Shown piece after piece: positions 1-55,466 of a DNA stretch of 64,000 nt. Under the pieces are notes generated by a model. The model was given only the letters and a program-made list of their open reading frames with translations, had not been told where the DNA came from and ran no database searches. This stretch comes from Antedon mediterranea (taxonomy: Eukaryota > Echinodermata > Crinoidea > Comatulida > Antedonidae), in contig NC_092673.1 in NCBI RefSeq assembly GCF_964355755.1, positions 13,833,001 to 13,897,000 of the forward strand, in the 5' to 3' direction. Position 1 is the first letter of the stretch, and the number at the start of each line of letters is the position of its first letter. The position numbers were made by a program, and so were the translations under genes.

Positions 1-564
1 AGCACAGATTGAAAAAAAATGGATCGAATTTCTGTTATGAGTATACAGTACTTGCCTTTACGACGCCTGAGGGAATAGACACTTGTGGAACAGAGATTGG
101 AATGTTCCATTCATTTCAAATCAATACATTTGCATAAACGTATATTACTGTAAATCTATCAAAATAGTATTTTTTTAAGAAAATCGGCCTGTCTTCAACA
201 TTATGATACTGTACTCGAGCTGTTCAACCGGTTTTCAGCTATTAAAAACAATTATCGTAGGAGGAGATAGGAAAATGCGAAGCCTCCTCGCATTTTTGTG
301 GCGGGTATTTTTCAAGATGGACATCCATTAGACAGTGTATACCACGATCGGAAAACACCCCTATTTGGGGCAAATCGTTGAACCTAAATTCGTTTTAATC
401 GTCAATAACTAATTATCGAACTCAATTTAATTAGTAAACAGGGTTACATCAGGCGGTTAAAATCAGTACCGAAAGTACGAACCAACTTTATATACCATCG
501 AGTAAACATTCTAGAAATAACGCGTGATTTACCGAATTTTGCCCTTACGTAAATTTATATATAG
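1..564. other. No gene recognised
   Basis: AT-rich sequence with stops in all frames. I see no coding segment, tandem repeat or inverted end. It may be the upstream part of the reverse transcriptase relic that follows, but nothing readable supports that. Confidence 0.4.
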
Positions 565-30636: not shown

Positions 30637-31393
30637 CAGTCGACTCCGCCTAAGTCGAATCTAATGGGACCGGTATAAAAATTCGAGTTACGCGAACTTC
30701 GACTTACAGATTTGCCAAAAAAAAATGCTAGGTTCACTCACTAGCCACGCTATGGCTAGGCCTAGTGGACCCTGCCCTGTCGCGATAGTGGCCCACGCGA
30801 TGAGCCTTCTTGAATTGAGTTTGCTTAGCTAGCTAGCTAGGCCTAATAAATGCTAAGCCTCTTTATAGGCAATGATAAACTGTACTTTCTTTTATTGTTT
30901 AAGCCCGAAACAATACAAAAACGTATAATAAATACATTGCGGTTTTTATTCGAAATCGGTAACCATTGTTTATTGCCATCTGTCTAGCACAAAATAGGTA
31001 CCCACAAAACGCCGCTCAAGTTCTCAACTCTCAAACAACTCATACACTATACACTAGCGCGAGTTGTAGGACACCGCCTATACTATACAACCTGCTTGAG
31101 AGAACCGATATGGTCCCACATTATCCCCTCTGTTGTTTGTTTATCGTTTCATCAGCTTTTTTAGCGCGTTGTTGCCGCGTAATTTGTGACTTCGACTTAT
31201 ACGATATAAATCACTAAAGAATGTGTGTATTCGGACCGCAAAAAGACGTCGACTTAGACGAATTTCGACTTAGAAAAATTCGACTTACAAATAAAAATTA
31301 CACAGTAATATAGGAAAGAATTGGGACTTTCCTAAAAATTTGACTTTTGCGATTTTTCGACTTACGCGAATTCGACTTAGGCGGAGTCGACTG
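30637..31393. mobile_element. 757 bp TA-flanked MITE with CAGTCGACTCC ends
   Basis: CAGTCGACTCCGCCTAAGTC at the left is matched exactly inverted at the right (30637 and 31393), with TA on both sides (30635-30636, 31394-31395). The interior repeats the theme ATTCGAsTTACGCGAA / TTCGACTTA several times near both ends. A CAG start and TA target are typical of pogo/Tigger-type elements. No transposase frame. Confidence 0.85.
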
Positions 31394-38620: not shown

Positions 38621-39553
38621 AAATGGCTGCAAAGGCTTTATTTTTCAGTTTGACCTTTGACCTTGATTGCCTAATATCTCAATAACGCGCAATCTCAGAG
38701 ATTTGAGAATGGGCTCAAAATGTTAAGAAAATAAATGTATTATTTAGTCTAATAGAAACTTTTTTCAAAAAATTACCATGAATTAAGCTTTTTTGACCCT
38801 TGACCTCTAATGTTTGAAAATGTCGCACAGCTGTTCCACCTATACAAATTAAGTCTGGCGCCACCAACGCTTAAACGACGCACTGTGGAGTTAAGAATGA
38901 GTTAACAGTTGTATACAAACCACGTGTAAACAATAAACCCGGTCAGGCATAGAATGGCTGTAATTAAACAGCCAATAAAAATAAAGTAAAGATCAAGCTG
39001 GTTTAAAAAATATGAATATTCATTACAACAACTCTCGACGAAGCTAGAAATGTGTTGATATGGTCTTATCACGTGTGATTGAGGACAGGGGTGTTAACGA
39101 AAAGTCAAGCCAAAAATGCCAAGTCTACAACATTACAAACAATCTTGAAGAGATTATAAAGTAGGTGTAACTTTGTTTGCCCGTATATATTAAAACTGAT
39201 TTTTTAAGTAGTAGTCATTGATATGGTTTGATAGTTAGTTATCTTGTGAGTGTTTTAAAAGGGTAGATAAGGAGAGTTGCTGGCTGAGATTTGTATATGG
39301 CCGTTTGCCAATATGAATATTTTCGGTCTAGGCTAGCCATTATAGTGGGCCTAGATAATCCAGTTGCAGTGTATTTCAAGCGCAAAGTACTCTGTATCAT
39401 CACCCAATCAAGTTTAAAATCACCGGTACATAATGATGTTTTACCTAGCCTAATAAGCTCAGGCCTAGGCTTGGCCTAGCCTATCATTTTATTTTACATA
39501 GGCCTAGCTAGGCCTAGTTAGTAGTAGGCCTATTTATTTGGTTTAATTATTTT

Positions 39554-39687
39554 AAATGTTGTAATTGGAAAATGTAAAATGTAATTTTCATGTTACATTA
39601 CAATACAGTACTAAAGTACTGTATTGTAAGTACTGTATTGTAATGTAACATGAAAATTACATTTTACATTTTCCAATTACAACATTT
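39554..39687. repeat. Perfect 59-bp inverted repeat, 16-nt loop
   Basis: 39554-39612 and 39629-39687 are exact reverse complements, with no mismatch across 59 bp. The arm starts AAATGTTGTAATTGGAAAAT. It lies downstream of the transposase stop codon, inside the transposon. Perfect arms imply a recent foldback or strong correction between arms. Confidence 0.95.
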
Positions 39688-39900
39688 TTTTTGCATTCAT
39701 ATTAATTTATTGTTTATTTTCTTCACTCATCAAAAAACACTTCATTAACCGAGACCTCATCAAGGACAGCCCATTCCAGAGATGAAAGAAAATGTCAACT
39801 ACAACGTTAACATAACAGTATTAATCGTATTATCACTGAATGGTTAGTATGTATATTAATTATAAAGTGCAATTAAAAACAAACAACTATTTGATTCTTG

Positions 39901-42900
39901 TCATGAATATTTGTACAAATATATAATAATACTGTAACTATCCAAGATAGCAACATCAGCAAGTGTTTTCAAAACAATATTGATTATCTGATAAAACTCC
40001 TAGAAAGTAGGAAGCCTTTTACCAAGGTAAGTGAAACTTAGAAACACAAGCACATCAGGAAAGATAAAAAATCACTGGCATATTCACATTCTTTCAATAT
40101 CAGTTATATAATAATTGAACTTGACTAATTCCAAATAATGATTGAAGGAGCATTGTATTTTGAAATTATTATTATTAATCAATCTTCTATGACTATGTAA
40201 ACACTTACTTTACAGGCTCTATGTACATGATTTCCAACAAAACTCTTTCCATGGTATTGTTGGCGAGGAATTTTGTTTTTCCGTAAAATTTCATCCATTT
40301 GAGTAGCAAGAGGTCCAGTTCCAAATTTTAGGTCGTTGTTTAATGAAGTACGCTATTAGGAAATATAAAATGTGTATTAAAAGCGTTTAATTGAATTCAT
40401 TTTAATTAACTACATTGTATTTATATTTACCAAGTCTTTAACTTCTTGATCTTTTAGATTGATCTGGTGTCCAAGCTGTGAAATGGTATCCGCATTATAT
40501 TCACGTTGAACAAGTGACAACGAGAGTTGGTTGCGCAACTCATCAATTTCTGCATCCAAAGACTTAATTTTGTCTGTACAAGAGTTTCGATTGGATGTGG
40601 CTTCAGCTACTTTTTTGTCAAAGTCTGGCAAAAATTCACCTGGAATAATAGATTTTAAATTTATTTAGTCAAGCATTTACAAAGGAAGATGGCAACAGTA
40701 AAACAGATTTAAATTTCTGGTTTAAAAAAAAGCAATTCACCCTCATATATTTGATTGGATGCATCCTGTCTCATATTAAAATGATGAGGTCCAGGTTATG
40801 TATGTCCTTTTCCAGCATGTCATACATTTTTTTAAATAGACCAAGCGATATGTGCAAAGCTGGAATGGATACCTGGAAAATATAATTTTAATACTTGGAA
40901 TTAATTACACTGACATATAAAGGTATGCATGCTATATTATGATTGTTATTTTTTTGTTTTAATTTTTAAATATTTGCATGTCCACCATGTCAACACTTTG
41001 CGCATGCATCAAATAGGTTGACGCTTCAACCAGCTAAAAAATGGATTTATTATACTGTACATGTTGTGTCGATTAGAGGACATGCAAATCAAAACTCACT
41101 GTTTCAAAATGTCATAACTAAAATTCTATTTAACTAACGACTAATTCGCTTACCCTGTTTAACTCAATGTTGACCATGTAAGGTCTAATTACACTATTTG
41201 ACACCAGCTTGCTTTTCTTTATGTCTTGGCCATGGTCTACAAATGACTTAAAATCGCGATTATACGATTTCAGGCATCTGCTGCTCTGAGGTGCCCTGTT
41301 TTGCTTTATATCATCCTGGTTGCAATAGCAGTAGATGCAACTGTATTTTCCTATAGGAAAAACACAGCTAAAACATCTTAAAGATGCATTTTAATAAAAA
41401 AATAAAAAGGCAATACTCAATATTTTTAGCGGGGATAGTTTTTTAAAATTCTAAATTATACAGCACATGAAAATCCCATAACAAAAAATTGTCTAAGGAA
41501 CGTTTCAACAATACAATTAAATATTTATTAACTCGCAATTATTTACTCACCATTGGGGCCAACCAGTCCATATATTCGGGATGAAAAGTCGTAGTCCCCA
41601 AAACAAAAGATGTTATGAGTTCTGAAATATGAGTAAATTATAACCATAACATACACTAGGTTTTATAAAAATTATACCATCACCTAATATTATGGATTAA
41701 TTGTTCTGCTATACTGTACATTACCTCTTTGTTTTGGGTGAGACCCACTGACTTCCATCTAATTCCATGACCTCATCGATCACTAGGTTTAGTCCCTTTT
41801 CTATGTTGATGGTAAGGTCTGGGGCTTGAAATATCAGAATCACGATGATGTTCTGCAGTGCGTTCGGCTTTTCCAAACCACAAATTTGCAATTCGAATTT
41901 GGTGGTGTCACCACCCTTATCACCACCAAATTTGATAAAGATCTCGTCATTAGGCCTATTGAAGGTGAGTTCATCTGACCTAAAATAGCATACAGTACAG
42001 TACAATTATAAAAATGTAGTGTAGAAAGCAAGACATTTTTGTAATTTATGTATTTTATCCTTTCAAAACTAAATGTGTTTTTTATTTCATTGATTTAAAT
42101 AAATACAATTGAAAAATTAATCCTATGAAAAACCTACATGTCATATTTATTCAAGTAGTCGTATACAAGTTCTTTAATCTTTGTTAGTCGTACGACTGCT
42201 ACCTCTTCTAGCACCAGCCCTCCGATAGAGGTAGCACAATCTCTCTTTAGAAACATGTATTCTAAGGATTTTCTTACAATCCTACAATCTCTTCTTGACA
42301 TATTCGCATTTTCCGCTCTGATGCAAATAAACCTGGACAGAATCTGAAAAAAAAATACTGCATTTACTTACTGACTGGGTTATCATTAGTTTGGATAACA
42401 ATTATTATAACTATTATAATTTACATACCTCCGCAGTGCCCGTTGTTGACTCCAGTTTATTCTGCATTTGTTCATCACTGCTAGGCATTTTTTGGCATCC
42501 ATTTGGGGATAAACGAAATTGATTGGAATGGCTGGTGGTGGTGAGGCTATTGTCTCGCTGACAAGTTTTAGTGGCTGAATTTGAAAAACATAAATATATT
42601 CATCATTACTATTAGTATTAATTATAATATAAAATGATATAATATTTACTGTATTTGCCAGCCTGTATATTTGTATAGACTTTATTACTGTATATAAAGA
42701 GTTTTTTTTTTCATTTACTACATTACTGTATACATGTTATATTTTTATATGTACATTGAAAAAATTAAATTTATGAATTACAATTTATTAATGTTTTTTA
42801 ATGTACATCTTTGTGTTTATTTATATCAAGTTGGCTGTAAAACTTACTCGTCCTTGAGTTGTGAGGGACATTTTCCCATCAGTTGCGTTCATATCGAACT

Positions 42901-45206
42901 TAGGGCGAGATAAGTACTGATCTAGTTAAATTTTACGAGAGCGGTAATTCGATTAAATTCATTAAATTGCGTTCGACGGCTCATGTTAGGGCGAGATAAC
43001 TTAAGCATCACATGCTCGCGACCCCGCCGACACAAACAGGAAGTACAGTTGAACAGGTTAGGGCATTTTATTGTGGGCTATTCCTTGTGTGTATACGCAC
43101 TCATTCTACCACCTTCTTCTTCTTTTTCGAGTACTGCTTAACGATCCGTCGAAACAATGCTTCCTCAGTTATTATTATTATCGGGGTTTTTACCTATATT
43201 TTTACAAATGATTAATGACGACACGACGTCTGAACTAGATGAAGGTACTGCTTTGCTGCTGTTTGCGTTAGTTGAGTTCATTTCTAGCTGCATGGAATCC
43301 CAGCGAATGATGCGACAACAACGACGGCTCAGATACCTACGATATGCCGAGGAACAGCGCGAACTTGGGGAGATCGTGTTTCTTTTACATACAAGCCTAG
43401 ATGTAACATTTTTTGTCTTCGCTTTTACTTTTTCGGACATGTTGAATGCGGTACAGATGTATTGAAATAAGTTTTAAAATAGTAATATGACAGATCGTCG
43501 CTCTCGGTTAACATGTGGTTCAGAAATAAAGCTAATTTGTTGATGTTTATATGTCAAAGTTGAAATTTGCTTTAATCTGATTGGTGTATTGGTGACCTCC
43601 AATTCTGAATGCCTCATGCTGTGTTAATTACCTTAATCGTTTTCTAGCTTTACCAGTGGATTTACTATTCCGTCGAGGCGATGGCCTTGACTGACCGTAG
43701 TCGAGGAAATTCCTTCATCTCGCCCTAATAATTCGTTCACATCGAAGTTATGGCGACATCATCTCGTTAATCTAGTAAATTTATCTCGCCCTAAGTTCGA
43801 TATGAACGGGCCTATCAACTATTTCTTTTCTCACAAGGCCATGTGCCATGTTCTTTAGTTCTGCTGGATACACATGTACTTGATTTGTTGTCGCACTTAT
43901 TTCTTTAACAGCATTCACAATCGTTGCAAATGCTTGTTCCTTTATAGATTTACAAAAGTGGCTTTCTGTTTCAGCTAGCACCAGCTTCAGATTGCAGTTA
44001 GTGCATTTTAGAGGCACCTTTAATATGGACTGTTCCACAATCGGTGGAATTGACTGAATGTTGTGATGTCGCAACTGAAGCATTCAATTTCTCCTCTTCC
44101 AACTGCCTTTTAAAGACTTTCTGTATGCAGAAATTGCAATAAAAATGTTGACACGGTGTCTGTATACTGTCAACAGAAAGTAGATTGCCACAAACATTGC
44201 ATTCATATATATTATCGGCATCATCAAAAATACGATATTGGCGATTTAAAGCGAGTTCGCTTTGTGCCGATACAAAATTTCCCCATATGTTACGGGAATC
44301 AGGAAACTTGTATTGTTTCAACCGTCTTCCTTGTCTCAATTGCTGCCTCAATAAGTAGCAAGCAAGGCATTTCGATGTATGTAATTTAGCTAATTGAAAA
44401 AATGGTGATATGGTCTGTCCTTTAATAACTTTTGAGTGACATGTTGAACAGATCCATTCAAAATGTATGTCATTTATTTGTAGTTGAATTTTCATATTCT
44501 CACTTTTATACTTTTTTTCATTTTCTTTAATTTTTTTACCACAGCATTGACAGATGGAGTCTATAGCCCTCTCATGAAACTGCTCCTCCCTGTAAAAAAA
44601 TTATATCATCAATTTATGAATTTTAAAAAAAACCAATTGGGCGCAACAGTGCAATGTTGGGTTTCGTATTATTAGTTATAACTAATTAGTTATATGCTAT
44701 AATATACTATCATGCCTACACTGTCAGACTGGTCTAGGCATATAGGCTAGTAGTAGTATTATTAATATTTAATTATATTTATAATATTCTAAAATCTAAA
44801 TAATAATTTTATTTTGTCAACAATAAATAATGCCAAACTGTAGGCCTAGAAAAAAACAAATAACTATGTTTTAATAATATTAAATATCAAATTTTCTAGC
44901 GTTGGGCCTAGCGTCATCCTAGGCCCCCACCTATACCGCTCTTGTCGCGGTCATCACCTAGGCCTGAGCGCTCCGCTGAAATCGCCGATACGCTGATCGT
45001 ATAAAAAAGGGTTGCACATTACAGGATTTTACCAGGTTTCTAACCAGCAACTCTATTTAAACCTTTGCTCAATTGAATCATATACAAATTTTGTTTTACA
45101 TAATATTTGCTGTTTATCTACAAAAAATTACATTTAAACAAAAACAGTAAAATCATACGATCATTTTGTTCACTTACGTTTGTTTACTATTTGTAGCGCT
45201 AGCCAT
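39901..45206 (-). pseudogene. RING-finger transposase with RAG1-like N-terminus (11 exons)
   Basis: Exons on the minus strand: 45178-45206 (ATG 45206), 44589-43811 plus 42881-42848, 42425-42574, 42138-42343, 41725-41979, 41551-41621, 41154-41350, 40741-40872, 40431-40639, 40209-40352, 39901-39999 (TGA). All junctions are GT-AG, and phases agree throughout except one base lost near 40770. The N-terminus has CQCC, WICSTC and KCLAC pairs, then a RING (CNVC, PCQHFYCNFC, CFSC) and a CTNC...HFC finger, in the order found in RAG1. The core has IKFGGDKGG, CFGDYDFSSRIYGL, CIYC, ALHISLGLF, a coiled coil (40431-40639) and YHGKSFVGNHVH. Expected length is about 770 residues. Breaks: two frameshifts between 44045 and 44100, a MITE in exon 2, and the base loss in exon 8. 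I assign it to the N-RAG-TP/Chapaev family. Confidence 0.75.
42882..43810. mobile_element. 929 bp MITE inside the RING exon
   Basis: Ends share CGTTCATATCGAACTTAGGG and continue CGAGATAA inverted. Flanks are CCCATCA (42875-42881) and CCTATCA (43811-43817), a 7-bp duplication with one difference. Removing it restores a continuous exon frame (RKEIVD then GKMSLTTQGR). Frames inside (43157-43465 plus, 43165-43440 minus) include a glutamine/arginine-rich MMRQQRRLRYLRYAEEQREL but no recognised domain. Confidence 0.8.
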
Positions 45207-45521
45207 AGTATTTCCTGGTTTCATGTACTGTACTAAATGTGATTAAAATCTGCTTTATAAAATTTTTTTTATATTTTAAGCGTGGTCAAACAATAACATG
45301 TTTATGTTTTAACCAAATGAATTTAATATTGAACAAAAACAGTATGTTAAGAATTATTAAACTAATAAGTACTACAAGGTGGAAAAAATAGCTATCGATC
45401 TCGCGAAAATACGATTGATAGCGAAAATCATAATTTGCGCCGTTGCTCGAGCGTCGTCTGCTAATATTGAGGGCGCTTGACTTTTATTAATATTTATTAC
45501 ATGATGGAACAGCTGTGGTCG

Positions 45522-47164: not shown

Positions 47165-49265
47165 CCGCTCCGCATCACAGTAATACTATTACTAATAGTG
47201 CTGGTTTCCACTACTTTCACCACTTGGCACACAATGTTGTCCTGCAGGGCGTTGCTTGCACGGGTACGTGTAGAAGGTCGGACGGGGTCGGTAACTTTAT
47301 AGTATCGTTTTCTTCCTGCGAACTCAGTTTGCTTCGTTCATCTGGCGATAAAAGAGCCGGCTTTCCCTTCGGATATTCTTCGTACCTTTCGGACGGGTTC
47401 TTGAGTCTGTAATAATATCTCGTCCATCAGGGAGCTATATCCTGGAGACAAGGCCAACACCGGCAATTCTGCCATTATAGATGGCAACTCGGCAACATCG
47501 GCCGGCTTCGGTTGTTGGTGACGAGATACAGGTATTGACTCGGGTTTATTCCTTCGATGCTGGTGGTGGTTTCATTCTTCGTGTCGTACTTGGTCCGCTT
47601 TTGTGTGGAACTTTCCTCCACAAAAACTGCATTCAAACCGCTTAGGGTTGCCTTCACCCTCGTATCGTTTTAACAGGTCAAAATGTAGTATTCTGAATTT
47701 CGGTCTAGGTCCTAGGCGTATCCGGTACGTTACTTCTGACAATTTCTTTTCAATGCGGAAGGGCCAACGCCATAAGCTTTCCAACTTTGGAGATACCCCT
47801 CTACGTTTTGTTTTATCGTACATCAGGACGAACATTCCTTCCTCCAACGTCCTACCACCGGATCGATGATCGTACAACTTTTTCTGTCTTCTCGTACTTT
47901 TTTTAAAAACCATTTTGGCTCGTTCTCTGGCCAATTCCATCCAATGTTTCATACGAGACACAAAATCCTCCTCAGGAATATGATTTATTGGAGATATCAT
48001 CAGGTCCACTGGTACCGTTGCCTCTCTTACGAACATCATCAGCTGGGGTGTTTCCCCTGTGGATTCTTGTGGGGTGGTTCTGTATGCAAACGTAGCGTAA
48101 GGGAGGAACTCGTCCCAGGTTTTCTGGTCCTCTAGAGGTTGTAACATTATTGCAATTATATTCACTAACGTCCTGTTAAATCGTTCTACGAGGCCGTCCG
48201 ATTTGGGGTTATATGGGGTAGTTCTGGTTTTGTGTATGCCTAATAACATACACATTTCTTTAATAATTGTTGACTCGAAATTTCGTCCCTGGTCGGAGTG
48301 TAACTGTTGCGGTATCCCGAACCTTGGCACAAACCCTTCCACAAAGCACTTCGCAAGGGGATACGCCTCCATCCACTTGGTCCAATAATCGCCGACTACT
48401 AACACGTACTTATTACCACGTTCCGATATAGGAAATGGTCCAAGAATGTCCATTGCGACTCGTTTAGTGGTTCTCGAACAGGCCACTGTTGTAGCTTAGC
48501 TTTCCTACGTTCTGGGGGTGATTTGCGCTTTGCACAGGGAACACACATTCGAATATGCGCCCGTACATCTGCATGCATTTTGGGCCAATAAAATCGTTGT
48601 TTTAATTTTCCTATCGTCTTATGACAACCCAGGTGACCACTCGTAACTCCGCCATGAGCTTCGTTTATTAAACTCGTCCTTAAAGTATGGGGAACTACAA
48701 CTTTCCAGGTACTGCTGCTACTGTCGCCATTCACTGCCTCCCATCGCCGACATAACACTCCTTCTCGTATCTCTAGTACGTCCCAAATTATCCAATAAGG
48801 TCTATTGTCGGGATTCACGTCCTCCCATTTAGGGCGATCAGAATTGGTCAGTTTTACTTGGTACACCCATGATATAGACTCATCATCTAACTGTTTATTT
48901 TTCAGGTCGGTAGCTGGTACTTCAGGTTCTAATCTAGTTAATCTGGCATAGGCTATTTCGGTAAACTGGTCCTCATTGTCACGTCCACACTGTTTACAAA
49001 CACGTCTCGACAATCCATCTGCATTTCCATGTTTGTTTCCGAGTCTGTGAATTATGATAAACTCGTACTCACTAATCACTAATCACCAGCGGTCCAATTG
49101 TCCCTCTTGATTTTTAAAATTTAAAATTTAAAATTTAAAACAGAGTAAAGCATGGTCAGTCCGGATAGTAATCTTTCTCCCGTAATAGTATTGTCGGAAA
49201 TATTTCAGGAAATACACAAGAGCTAAAAGCTCTCGTCTGGTAACGCAATAATTTTGTTCAGCCTA
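47165..49265 (-). pseudogene. Gypsy pol: RNase H end, integrase, C-terminal zinc finger
   Basis: The RNase H part reads YCVTRRELLALVYFLKYFRQ, ITIRTDHALL, then EYEFIIIHRLGNKHGNADGL. It is broken by a TTTTAAAATTTAAA expansion near 49110-49140. The integrase zinc-binding HHCC segment reads HGGVTSGHLGCHKTIGKLKQ...CVPCAKRK. The catalytic core has MDILGPFP, SDQGRNFES and GLVERFNRTL, giving the D, D and E residues. A frameshift near 48475 separates the zinc segment from the core, and some 6-8 residues are missing after EAYPLAK. After the RYEGEGNPKRF motif comes CSFCGGKFHTKADQVRHEE, a C2H2-like finger, then a stop. The tail continues with NHHQHRRNKPES and SIMAELPVLALSPGYSSLMD to about 47250 in the same frame with a later stop. 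Not functional. Confidence 0.85.
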
Positions 49266-52864: not shown

Positions 52865-54149
52865 TTAAATTTTTACTCTATGTGTAATGCGACTTCCTGT
52901 GAGGATTTCAGCATCTATTACATGATCATGGAGGTGCTTAATGTATAGTCTTGTACCATTACATAGTTCTTTGGTGATATCTAAGTTGCGTAGTAACATA
53001 ATGATTGCACCTTGTTTTAAAATTAAGCGATGTGTTGGCATACCAGTTGGTGTGATGGAGTGAAGAAATTCTAAAGGGTAGTTGTTTGCTTCCAGTTCAT
53101 CATGTGTAATAGCCTTGTGTCTGTACTTGTATATGTTTTTGGCAAGCCTGGAAGTTTGTTTATAACTTTATCATAAAGTGTAAATGTAGTTTCATTAGGG
53201 GTGTAAGATTAGAATCATCTACAATGCTTTCACGTTCAGATAAGATGTTGCACTGATGTGGAATTTCTATGGATGACGGTGGTGCTTTGGTCACCTGACT
53301 ACGAAGTTCACCATTGCCTAACTGAAGGAGCCATTGTGCATACTGCTGTTCATTTTCATTTGGCCTCATATTCTTTGTGAGTTCAAAAATCTTGAAATTG
53401 TGCCATAGTGAAGATCGCTTAAGGCAGTTTTCAATGATTGCTGTTTGGGATTGTTTGGGAAGAACAGGTAACACTTGGCGAAAGTCACGTCCCATGAGAA
53501 CAACCTTTCCTCCAAATGGGACATGTGTTTCAGTGATATCTTTTAACATTTTATCAATTGCTAAAAGAGCATTACTTGGGATCATTGAAGCTTCGTCAAT
53601 AATGAAAAGGGAAACTGAACGGATGTAGTTGGCATATTTTGATGTTGGAGAAATGTTGCAAGTGCTGGTGTCTAACACAGGAACAGGGAGTTTGAAAAGA
53701 TTGTCCTCCAGCAAGAAGTGTCGCGGCAATTCCTGTCCATGCAGATGATGCAACTTTAATAGATTTACTTTGACAATAAGTAATAAGTGATATGTGTATA
53801 CCGTTGTTTTGCCACTGCCACCTGGACCATTTAAAAAATAACATCGGGTGAATGGTATATTTTGATCTTCAAAAAGTGAATCCAGATCTTGAGTCACTTG
53901 GTCAACTGCGATGCGTTGGTCTTCATTGAGACGCATTAATTGTGTGTGGGATTTTTCAGTTTCGGTAACAATATCGAAGTCGTCTGAGGAGAGATTTTGA
54001 ATATCGAGCTGGTTAATATCAGGTAGTCCTAAGGTTGTTAAACTTGTACCATTTTGTTGCAAAGACCTGTCTATGTCTTGGAGAGCTAATTGTGTCGCTA
54101 TTTGGAGGGCATACCCACGATGTGTATAGTCTTTGTCACACAGCCGCAA
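52865..54149 (-). pseudogene. Helitron helicase (Pif1-like), C-terminal part
   Basis: Reads RLNEDQRIAVDQV, then the P-loop FLNGPGGSGKTTVYTY, then FIIDEASMIP (Walker B), GGKVVLMGRDFRQVLPVLPK, and FELTKNMRPNENEQQYAQWL. After further frameshifts come NYPLEFLHSITPTGMPTHRL and LLRNLDITKELCNGTRLYIK, ending GSRITHRVKI and TAA at 52865-52867. These are Pif1/Helitron helicase motifs I to VI. Between P-loop and Walker B the right frame moves to ITYCQSKSIKVASSAWTGIA then ATLLAGGQ, so two compensating shifts (about 53705-53790) occur; another lies near 53110-53160. The usual GGDFRQ is GRDFRQ. The Rep nuclease half is missing beyond 54149. Confidence 0.85.
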
Positions 54150-54516: not shown

Positions 54517-55466
54517 GCAATATTGTTACTTCTTGTCTTCTTCTGTCTCGATGCTGACACAAAACAAATTAGAACGATAAAAGTTAACACGATTCTGCAA
54601 CTAAACAACTAGCCGACGCCTCTGCTCCCGTTCTGATGGTATAACCAATTATTATTCTTCCCAAACTGCAACTATTTTCTGATATTTCCAACAGTTGAAT
54701 AGTAAGAATGACTTGCAAAATATATATACAACTTTTTATACCCTTTTTCAAAACTATTTCACTTGGCTCCGGTTGCGGCTAAGGCACTTGGTTGGTTGTT
54801 ATTCGGGCCTGCGGCTATGCCACTTGATTGGCTGGGTTCCGGGCTTTCGGCTATGCCACTTGGTTGGTCGAGTTCCGGGCTTGCAAGTTCTGTTGCCTGT
54901 AATAAAGCCAAATCATCTATGTCATCCTCAGGAAAATCATCTATGTCATCCTCAGGAAAATCATCAATTTTAATGGATTGTTGTGATCAGTGTCTAGAGG
55001 GGGCAATATTGTTACTTCTTGTCTTCTTCTGTCTCGATGCTGACACAAAACAAATTAGAACGATAAAAGTTAACACGATTCTGCAACTAAACAACTAGCC
55101 GACGCCTCTGCTCCCGTTCTGATGGTATAACCAATTATTATTCTTCCCAAACTGCAACTATTTTCTGATATTTCCAACAGTTGAATAGTAAGAATAACTT
55201 GCAAAATATATATACAACTTTTTATACCCTTTTTCAAAACTATTTCACTTGGCTCCGGTTGCGGCTAAGGCACTTGGTTGGTTGTTATTCGGGCCTGCGG
55301 CTATGCCACTTGATTGGCTGGGTTCCGGGCTTTCGGCTATGCCACTTGGTTGGTCGAGTTCCGGGCTTGCAAGTTCCGTTGCCTGTAATAAAGCCAAATC
55401 ATCTATGTCATCCTCAGGAAAATCATCAATTTTAATGGATTGTTGTGATCAGTGTCTAGAGGGGGA
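54517..55466. repeat. Recent tandem duplication, 486-bp unit
   Basis: 54517-55002 and 55003 to about 55466 differ at only a few positions (for example AATGACTTG/AATAACTTG). Copy 2 also lacks one 21-bp ATCTATGTCATCCTCAGGAAA unit. Each copy holds a threefold approximately 45-bp minisatellite (CTATGCCACTTG...TTCCGGGCTT). On the minus strand a frame reads IDDFPEDDIDDFPEDDIDDL, ALLQATELASPELDQPSGIA, ESPEPSQSSGIAAGPNNNQP, an acidic, repeated peptide. Plus-strand frames at 54695-55098 and 55181-55566 come from the same repetition. It may be a terminal exon, because a CCCCTCCCCCTCTAG acceptor-like tract precedes copy 2, but its phase is blocked by a stop. Confidence 0.85.

Follow-up and report, generated by a model that had tools for sequence, protein, structure and literature searches.

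The origin of the RING region at the N-terminus of RAG1 is debated, the two proposals being fusion with N-RAG-TP and descent accompanied by loss elsewhere. The first is argued in PMC8355894, which derives the RING region from recombination or fusion with N-RAG-TP, and the second by Kapitonov and Koonin (2015; PMC4411706), who propose that the RAG1 N-terminus was inherited and lost in other lineages. The latter authors also place Chapaev inside the Transib superfamily and describe a Chapa domain, a RING and a C2H2 finger in two Chapaev subgroups (PMC4411706). Three N-terminal zinc motifs are reported for most of the RAG1L proteins of PMC7204232, the domain PF06918 (DUF1280) has been equated with the Chapaev transposase (PMC3985635), and the motifs that define the CMCT clade are taken from PMC12730594. 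The locus described here lies in a stretch of 64,000 nucleotides (the window) of the genome of Antedon mediterranea, a crinoid and thus an echinoderm, as a first-pass annotation made from the letters had suspected. The element at positions 38826–45517 is very probably a defunct DNA transposon of the RING-bearing Chapaev kind, which belongs to the CMCT clade and has Transib and RAG1 as its nearest kin. Its features, in window positions, are as follows.

38826..45517, gene on the minus strand: whole element, delimited by its pair of terminal inverted repeats (TIRs), its target-site duplication (TSD) and homology to two other elements of the genome, L012 and L009
38822..38825: left TSD, GTCG, read directly in the sequence
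45518..45521: right TSD, GTCG, read directly in the sequence
38826..38838, plus strand: left TIR, CACAGCTGTTCCA
45505..45517, minus strand: right TIR, the exact inverse of CACAGCTGTTCCA with 0 mismatches
45178..45206, minus strand: exon 1 with the first ATG and a GTAAGT donor, too short for a homology check
42848..44589, minus strand: exon 2, with two frame breaks and the insert at 42886–43808; homology to P0001
44358..44552, minus strand: Chapa-type N-terminal cysteine pairs (CQCC, CSTC, CLAC), in the family profile match to RAG1 101–374
44071..44201, minus strand: RING finger (PF00097, E 6.2e-5, 23.2 bits, cut-off 21), its last cysteine pair in a different frame
43952..44005, minus strand: C2HC zinc finger downstream of the RING, aligned within the RAG1 profile match
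42886..43808: inserted element of 923 bp with 28-bp perfect inverted ends (CGTTCATATCGAACTTAGGGCGAGATAA), inside exon 2, with no counterpart in the L012 alignment
42429..42574, minus strand: exon 3, from splice borders and homology
42138..42343, minus strand: exon 4, with one frame break by comparison with P0001
41725..41979, minus strand: exon 5, with GGDKGG and the first Asp at 41910–41927
exons 4–5, minus strand: PF06918 match (E 1.6e-16, 61 bits, cut-off 25)
41551..41621, minus strand: exon 6, with FGDYDF and the second Asp at 41585–41602
41154..41350, minus strand: exon 7, with the C(2)C motif CIYC at 41328–41339
40741..40872, minus strand: exon 8, with one frame break
40431..40639, minus strand: exon 9, coiled-coil-like, from homology
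40209..40352, minus strand: exon 10, with YHGKSFVGNHVH at 40221–40256, from homology
39293..40202: segment of about 0.9 kb that does not align to L012 and stands where relatives have their C-terminal exons

The 13-bp inverted ends and the GTCG duplication named in the first-pass annotation are both present. The window has six pairs of inverted 13-mers with an identical 4-bp flank and at most 8 kb apart; 40 simulated Markov-1 windows gave 0.125 on average and never more than 1. Besides the ends of the element, these comprise two AT-simple pairs, two inside the inserted element and one at 30644–31386; this last, with inverted 13-mers CTCCGCCTAAGTC and TCGA on either flank, is possibly a small non-autonomous element. 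A 4-bp target-site duplication belongs to the definition of Chapaev, and 4 bp is also the length found in ten other elements of the genome, not the 5 bp of RAG1 and RAGL. The ends have the 5'-CA..TG-3' form that, with duplications of 2–5 bp, characterizes CMCT transposons.

Ten minus-strand exons have AG acceptors and GT donors at the borders tested and splice phases that fit, and exons 2–10 are matched in order by homology to proteins P0001–P0006; the eleventh exon of the gene as first drawn has no such homology behind it. The cysteine pairs, the RING, the further zinc finger (C2HC), GGDKGG, FGDYDF and YHGKSFVGNHVH are all where they had been noticed. Comparison with P0001 and other relatives gives four frame breaks, two in exon 2 and one each in exons 4 and 8. 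A break in exon 3 was considered and ruled out, as P0001 shows exon 3 open and the break in exon 4; the PF06918 score, the one-sequence RING search and alignment A1 used the alternative exon-3 frame, and the PF06918, RING and RAG1 profile results hold in both readings or use no window sequence. Scans of the window for tRNAs and with Rfam at gathering scores were empty.

The likeness to RAG1 lies in the N-terminal module (cysteine pairs, RING and finger, hereafter the N-module). A profile, A2, of the window sequence with P0001, P0002, P0003 and P0005 has RAG1 101–374 as its top match (E 2.6e-19), and its cysteine pairs, the Chapa half, also match the RAG1 N-terminal chain 21wb (5.7e-10). RAG1 remains first when P0005 is left out (E 2.1e-12), and is first with A3, a profile holding no window or crinoid sequence (E 3.2e-17). 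Among the matches listed for these three profiles (60 of 99, 44 of 44 and 60 of 65), no other protein is aligned across the cysteine pairs, the RING and the finger together. The proposed RAG1-type N-terminus with a RING has thus withstood the profile comparison that could have overturned it, and the core is preceded, as in RING-bearing Chapaevs, by a Chapa domain, a RING and a C2H2-type finger, Chapa being recognized through the family profile only. One relative, P0005, passes the threshold of PF12560 (RAG1 importin binding; 30.9 bits, 23.3 needed), and P0009 just misses it (22.6). In P0010, residues 13–71 of the Chapa region show a weak match to Pfam zf-AD (E 0.055, below cut-off), and the structure model of its N-terminal region (mean pLDDT, the predicted local distance difference test score, of 38.9) is too poor for use.

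Behind this module the window copy carries the PF06918 core of Chapaev and, after the second Asp, the C(2)C motif of the CMCT clade, at a spacing of 19 residues in five of five relatives. The core did not align with RAG1 in sequence: with profiles A1 and A3, the best RAG1 stretch was the N-module only. The predicted fold of a relative's core is of the RAG1 type. The description of the enzyme as a non-Transib transposase understates the kinship, since Chapaev has been placed inside the Transib superfamily (PMC4411706) and that core is predicted to be RAG1-like.

Searches of the protein database, metagenomes included, gave 2, 5 and 5 matches, the 2 among the 7,996 scored candidates that shared most words. 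P0001, P0002, P0003, P0005 and P0009 each join the N-module and the PF06918 core in one predicted protein. P0001, attributed to A. mediterranea by its source, was compared with L012 over three stretches. Two of them show 312 identities in 313 residues and 71 in 71; in the third 86 residues are identical and 9 are not, and an exon border accounts for the mismatch at least in part.

Further copies were sought with the right 80 bases of the element against the genome (354 Mb, 18 contigs), and 40 of 77 candidates were scored, one of them the window itself. The best other end matches at 85% over 66 bases and most at 81% over 69 or 70, so that no close sister stands among the scored ends and related lineages share the end. 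Fourteen stretches, two of which overlap, were examined for 14 of the 39 other right ends. For ten of these 14 ends there is a partner repeat at the left with the same 4-bp flank, and the flanks differ from one element to the next (TCTC, CGAA, AGGA, AGCT, AATT, TAAA, ATTG, TACT, TTCA and TGCA); the remaining four (the first end of L010, L014, L020 and L021) have no matching partner, L021 showing two loose candidate repeats of the two-mismatch class with differing flanks. The ends of these other lineages read CACAGCTGTTYCA, one L009 end reads CACGGCTGTTTCA, and the duplications are of 4 bp. Copies with unrelated ends, which would have spoken against the first-pass annotation, were not seen, a weak test because the ends were the search key.

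Relatives that look complete do occur in this genome. L009 (7,372 bp) and L012 (6,778 bp) hold the N-module, the core and C-terminal exons within one element and in the same order. Their counterparts of window exons 2–10 and two further C-terminal exons are all open in frame, the RING and the EQGGE exon among them; L012 has HVY in place of the family's HVH. They look like putative autonomous elements accompanied by internally deleted derivatives. L014, whose right end is unpaired in its stretch, also shows N-module and core. Seven of the ten paired elements, of 3,739–3,783 bp (L011, L013, L015, which also lies in L010, and L016–L019), four of them on contig C9, show only core parts (E up to 0.001) and are a uniform, internally deleted, non-autonomous form, perhaps one that spread recently. 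L022 (1,040 bp) has no coding match.

The window copy, for its part, can no longer make the transposase, several exons being broken and the last ones gone. The first-pass annotation had called it near-complete, a few single-base errors and one miniature inverted-repeat transposable element away from intact; this was mistaken, as four frame breaks and the 923-bp insert are joined by about 0.9 kb of other sequence replacing the C-terminal exons. Against L012 the element aligns at bases 1–467 and again from 1378, with L012 466–2279 between; element bases 468–1377 (window 39293–40202) do not align, and it is in this gap that the C-terminal exons of L012 lie. When the C-termini of five family proteins were used as queries, L012 was matched down to E 3e-26 and L009 down to E 3e-27, and the stretch between the left end of the window element and exon 10 gave no better than E 0.15; the C-terminal exons of L009 and L012 found nothing there better than E 0.018. 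That last match, of an L009 exon at 39098–39181, is on the strand opposite to the gene and was set aside as chance or an unrecognizable relic. Because these searches found nothing there, the window copy is without the CMCT H(3-4)H motif and the final Glu that follows it; both are present in L009, L012 and five of five relatives, and the absence is, judged by these comparisons, a loss in this copy and not in the family. A 37–39 bp stretch of the replacing segment matches six other fetched loci at 82–86%, so the family shares at least some of this sequence. Inside the segment lies a palindrome (39554–39687) whose perfect arms, 59 bp each, enclose a 16-base loop. No clear target duplication of the insert at 42886–43808 was found by eye, nor a copy of it among the other fetched loci.

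Three other explanations have to be set against a RING-bearing Chapaev transposon. It could be supposed that the RING is an ordinary one, captured alone, and that its likeness to RAG1 arose by convergence: a one-sequence search found RINGs with TRAF6 and BRCA1 scoring above RAG1, and both come close behind it with a two-crinoid profile (RAG1 RING 5.5e-5, BRCA1 1.9e-4, TRAF6 2.1e-4). This is highly unlikely, given that the alignment to RAG1 spans the whole N-module and that its Chapa half matches chain 21wb. Hardly any weight falls on a second view, in which the N-module would be a separate host or transposon gene, similar to N-RAG-TP, adjoining a Chapaev core, with exons that do not form one gene. 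N-RAG-TP is indeed described as wholly RAG1 N-terminal-like (PMC8355894), the frames of the window are broken and two relatives are modelled as core only; yet five predicted proteins unite both parts, L009 and L012 repeat the order within one element, and the splice phases fit. A domesticated host gene, to which the many exons and conserved domains might point, is next to impossible, as the TIRs, the TSDs, the further copies with their internally deleted derivatives and the broken state of the window copy already contradict it.

Several observations nevertheless weigh against the Chapaev assignment with its RAG1-type front end. P0004 (610 aa) and the lancelet P0006 (809 aa) have PF06918 and no RING in the database models, owing to either loss or an incomplete model. 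The exon model is a prediction from sequence and homology, and the Chapaev name follows from the literature statement about PF06918, not from a comparison with Repbase. The fold model comes from one relative and a 10-row alignment, with pLDDT mostly 70–95 in the core, 44–70 in parts of 661–850 and mostly below 50 in the N-terminus. With the two-crinoid profile, in which the RINGs of BRCA1 and TRAF6 rank so near that of RAG1, the Chapa half of RAG1 was not matched, and it is reached only through relatives. PF12560 is unmatched by the window N-terminus, P0001, P0002, P0003, P0010 and the L009 and L012 exons; it is likewise not listed for P0004 and P0006.

If the transposon reading is followed, the complete-looking relatives would each express, from one spliced gene, a transposase of roughly 1,000 amino acids, arranged as a Chapa cysteine domain, a RING, a zinc finger and then a DDE core that contains a C2/H2 zinc site and is predicted to fold like the core of RAG1. 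By analogy with RAG1, the N-module may serve dimerization or an E3 (ubiquitin-ligase) or turnover role. The enzyme would pair two CAC-ended terminal repeats, excise the element and insert it with a 4-bp stagger; the ends, the duplications with their stagger and the domain order are read directly in the elements. Cut-and-paste by a RAG-like DDE enzyme is the most likely mode, with a chemistry that, by analogy with RAG1 and Transib, would presumably include hairpin formation.

The link between a RAG1 N-module and a transposase of this group is not new, having been published in 2015 (PMC4411706). The architecture is already known; what is added here are crinoid members and complete-looking copies beside a broken one, together with, as far as the literature was searched, the predicted likeness in fold between the core of a RING-Chapaev and RAG1. 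That search found no report of a crinoid RAG1L, an absence that shows little, most subscription papers being outside its coverage. It is possible, if on balance somewhat doubtful, that the whole RAG1 plan (Chapa, RING, finger and RAG1-fold core with C2/H2 zinc site) was one protein before the split between Chapaev and Transib/RAG, that RAG1 inherited its N-terminus and did not gain it by N-RAG-TP fusion, and that crinoid Chapaevs with complete open exons are living transposases of that plan, working without RAG2 on CAC-type ends. By itself the window copy matters little; the complete-looking relatives make the family useful for the question of the RAG1 front end, since two such elements in one crinoid genome allow descent and fusion to be tested against each other, both biochemically and by phylogeny.

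Elsewhere in the window, open reading frames on the minus strand at 47572–49082 resemble, by eye, a gypsy-type integrase (GLVERFNRTL), and one at 53160–54149, also on the minus strand and again by eye, resembles a helicase of the Pif1 type (GPGGSGKTTVY) that may belong to a Helitron. Two 111-bp arrays of one 36-bp unit, at 54774–54884 and 55260–55370, have equal scores and lie 486 bases apart, a duplicated stretch.

Vertebrate RAG1 and RAGL share with these elements the order of the N-module, the CAC ends, the predicted core fold and the C2/H2 zinc site, and differ from them in the length of the duplications (5 bp versus 4 bp here) and in a core that the profiles tried did not align. In vertebrates, the CAC ends are those of the recombination signal sequences on which RAG1 acts. 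Echinoderm RAG1L is described without the RING (ZDD; PMC7204232), whereas the echinoderm Chapaevs reported here keep it. Transib (HzTransib) differs in having no N-terminal module and duplications of 5 bp (PMC8355894). N-RAG-TP of Aplysia is alike in being a RAG1-N-terminal-like protein in a transposon, a likeness by description only, and what that source describes is N-terminal-like sequence only (PMC8355894). The closest systems, again compared by description only, are the RING-bearing Chapaev subgroups, in which a Chapaev core likewise follows a Chapa domain, a RING and a C2H2 finger (PMC4411706); lancelet and sea anemone are the hosts named there, while the window element has a crinoid host and has lost its C-terminal part.
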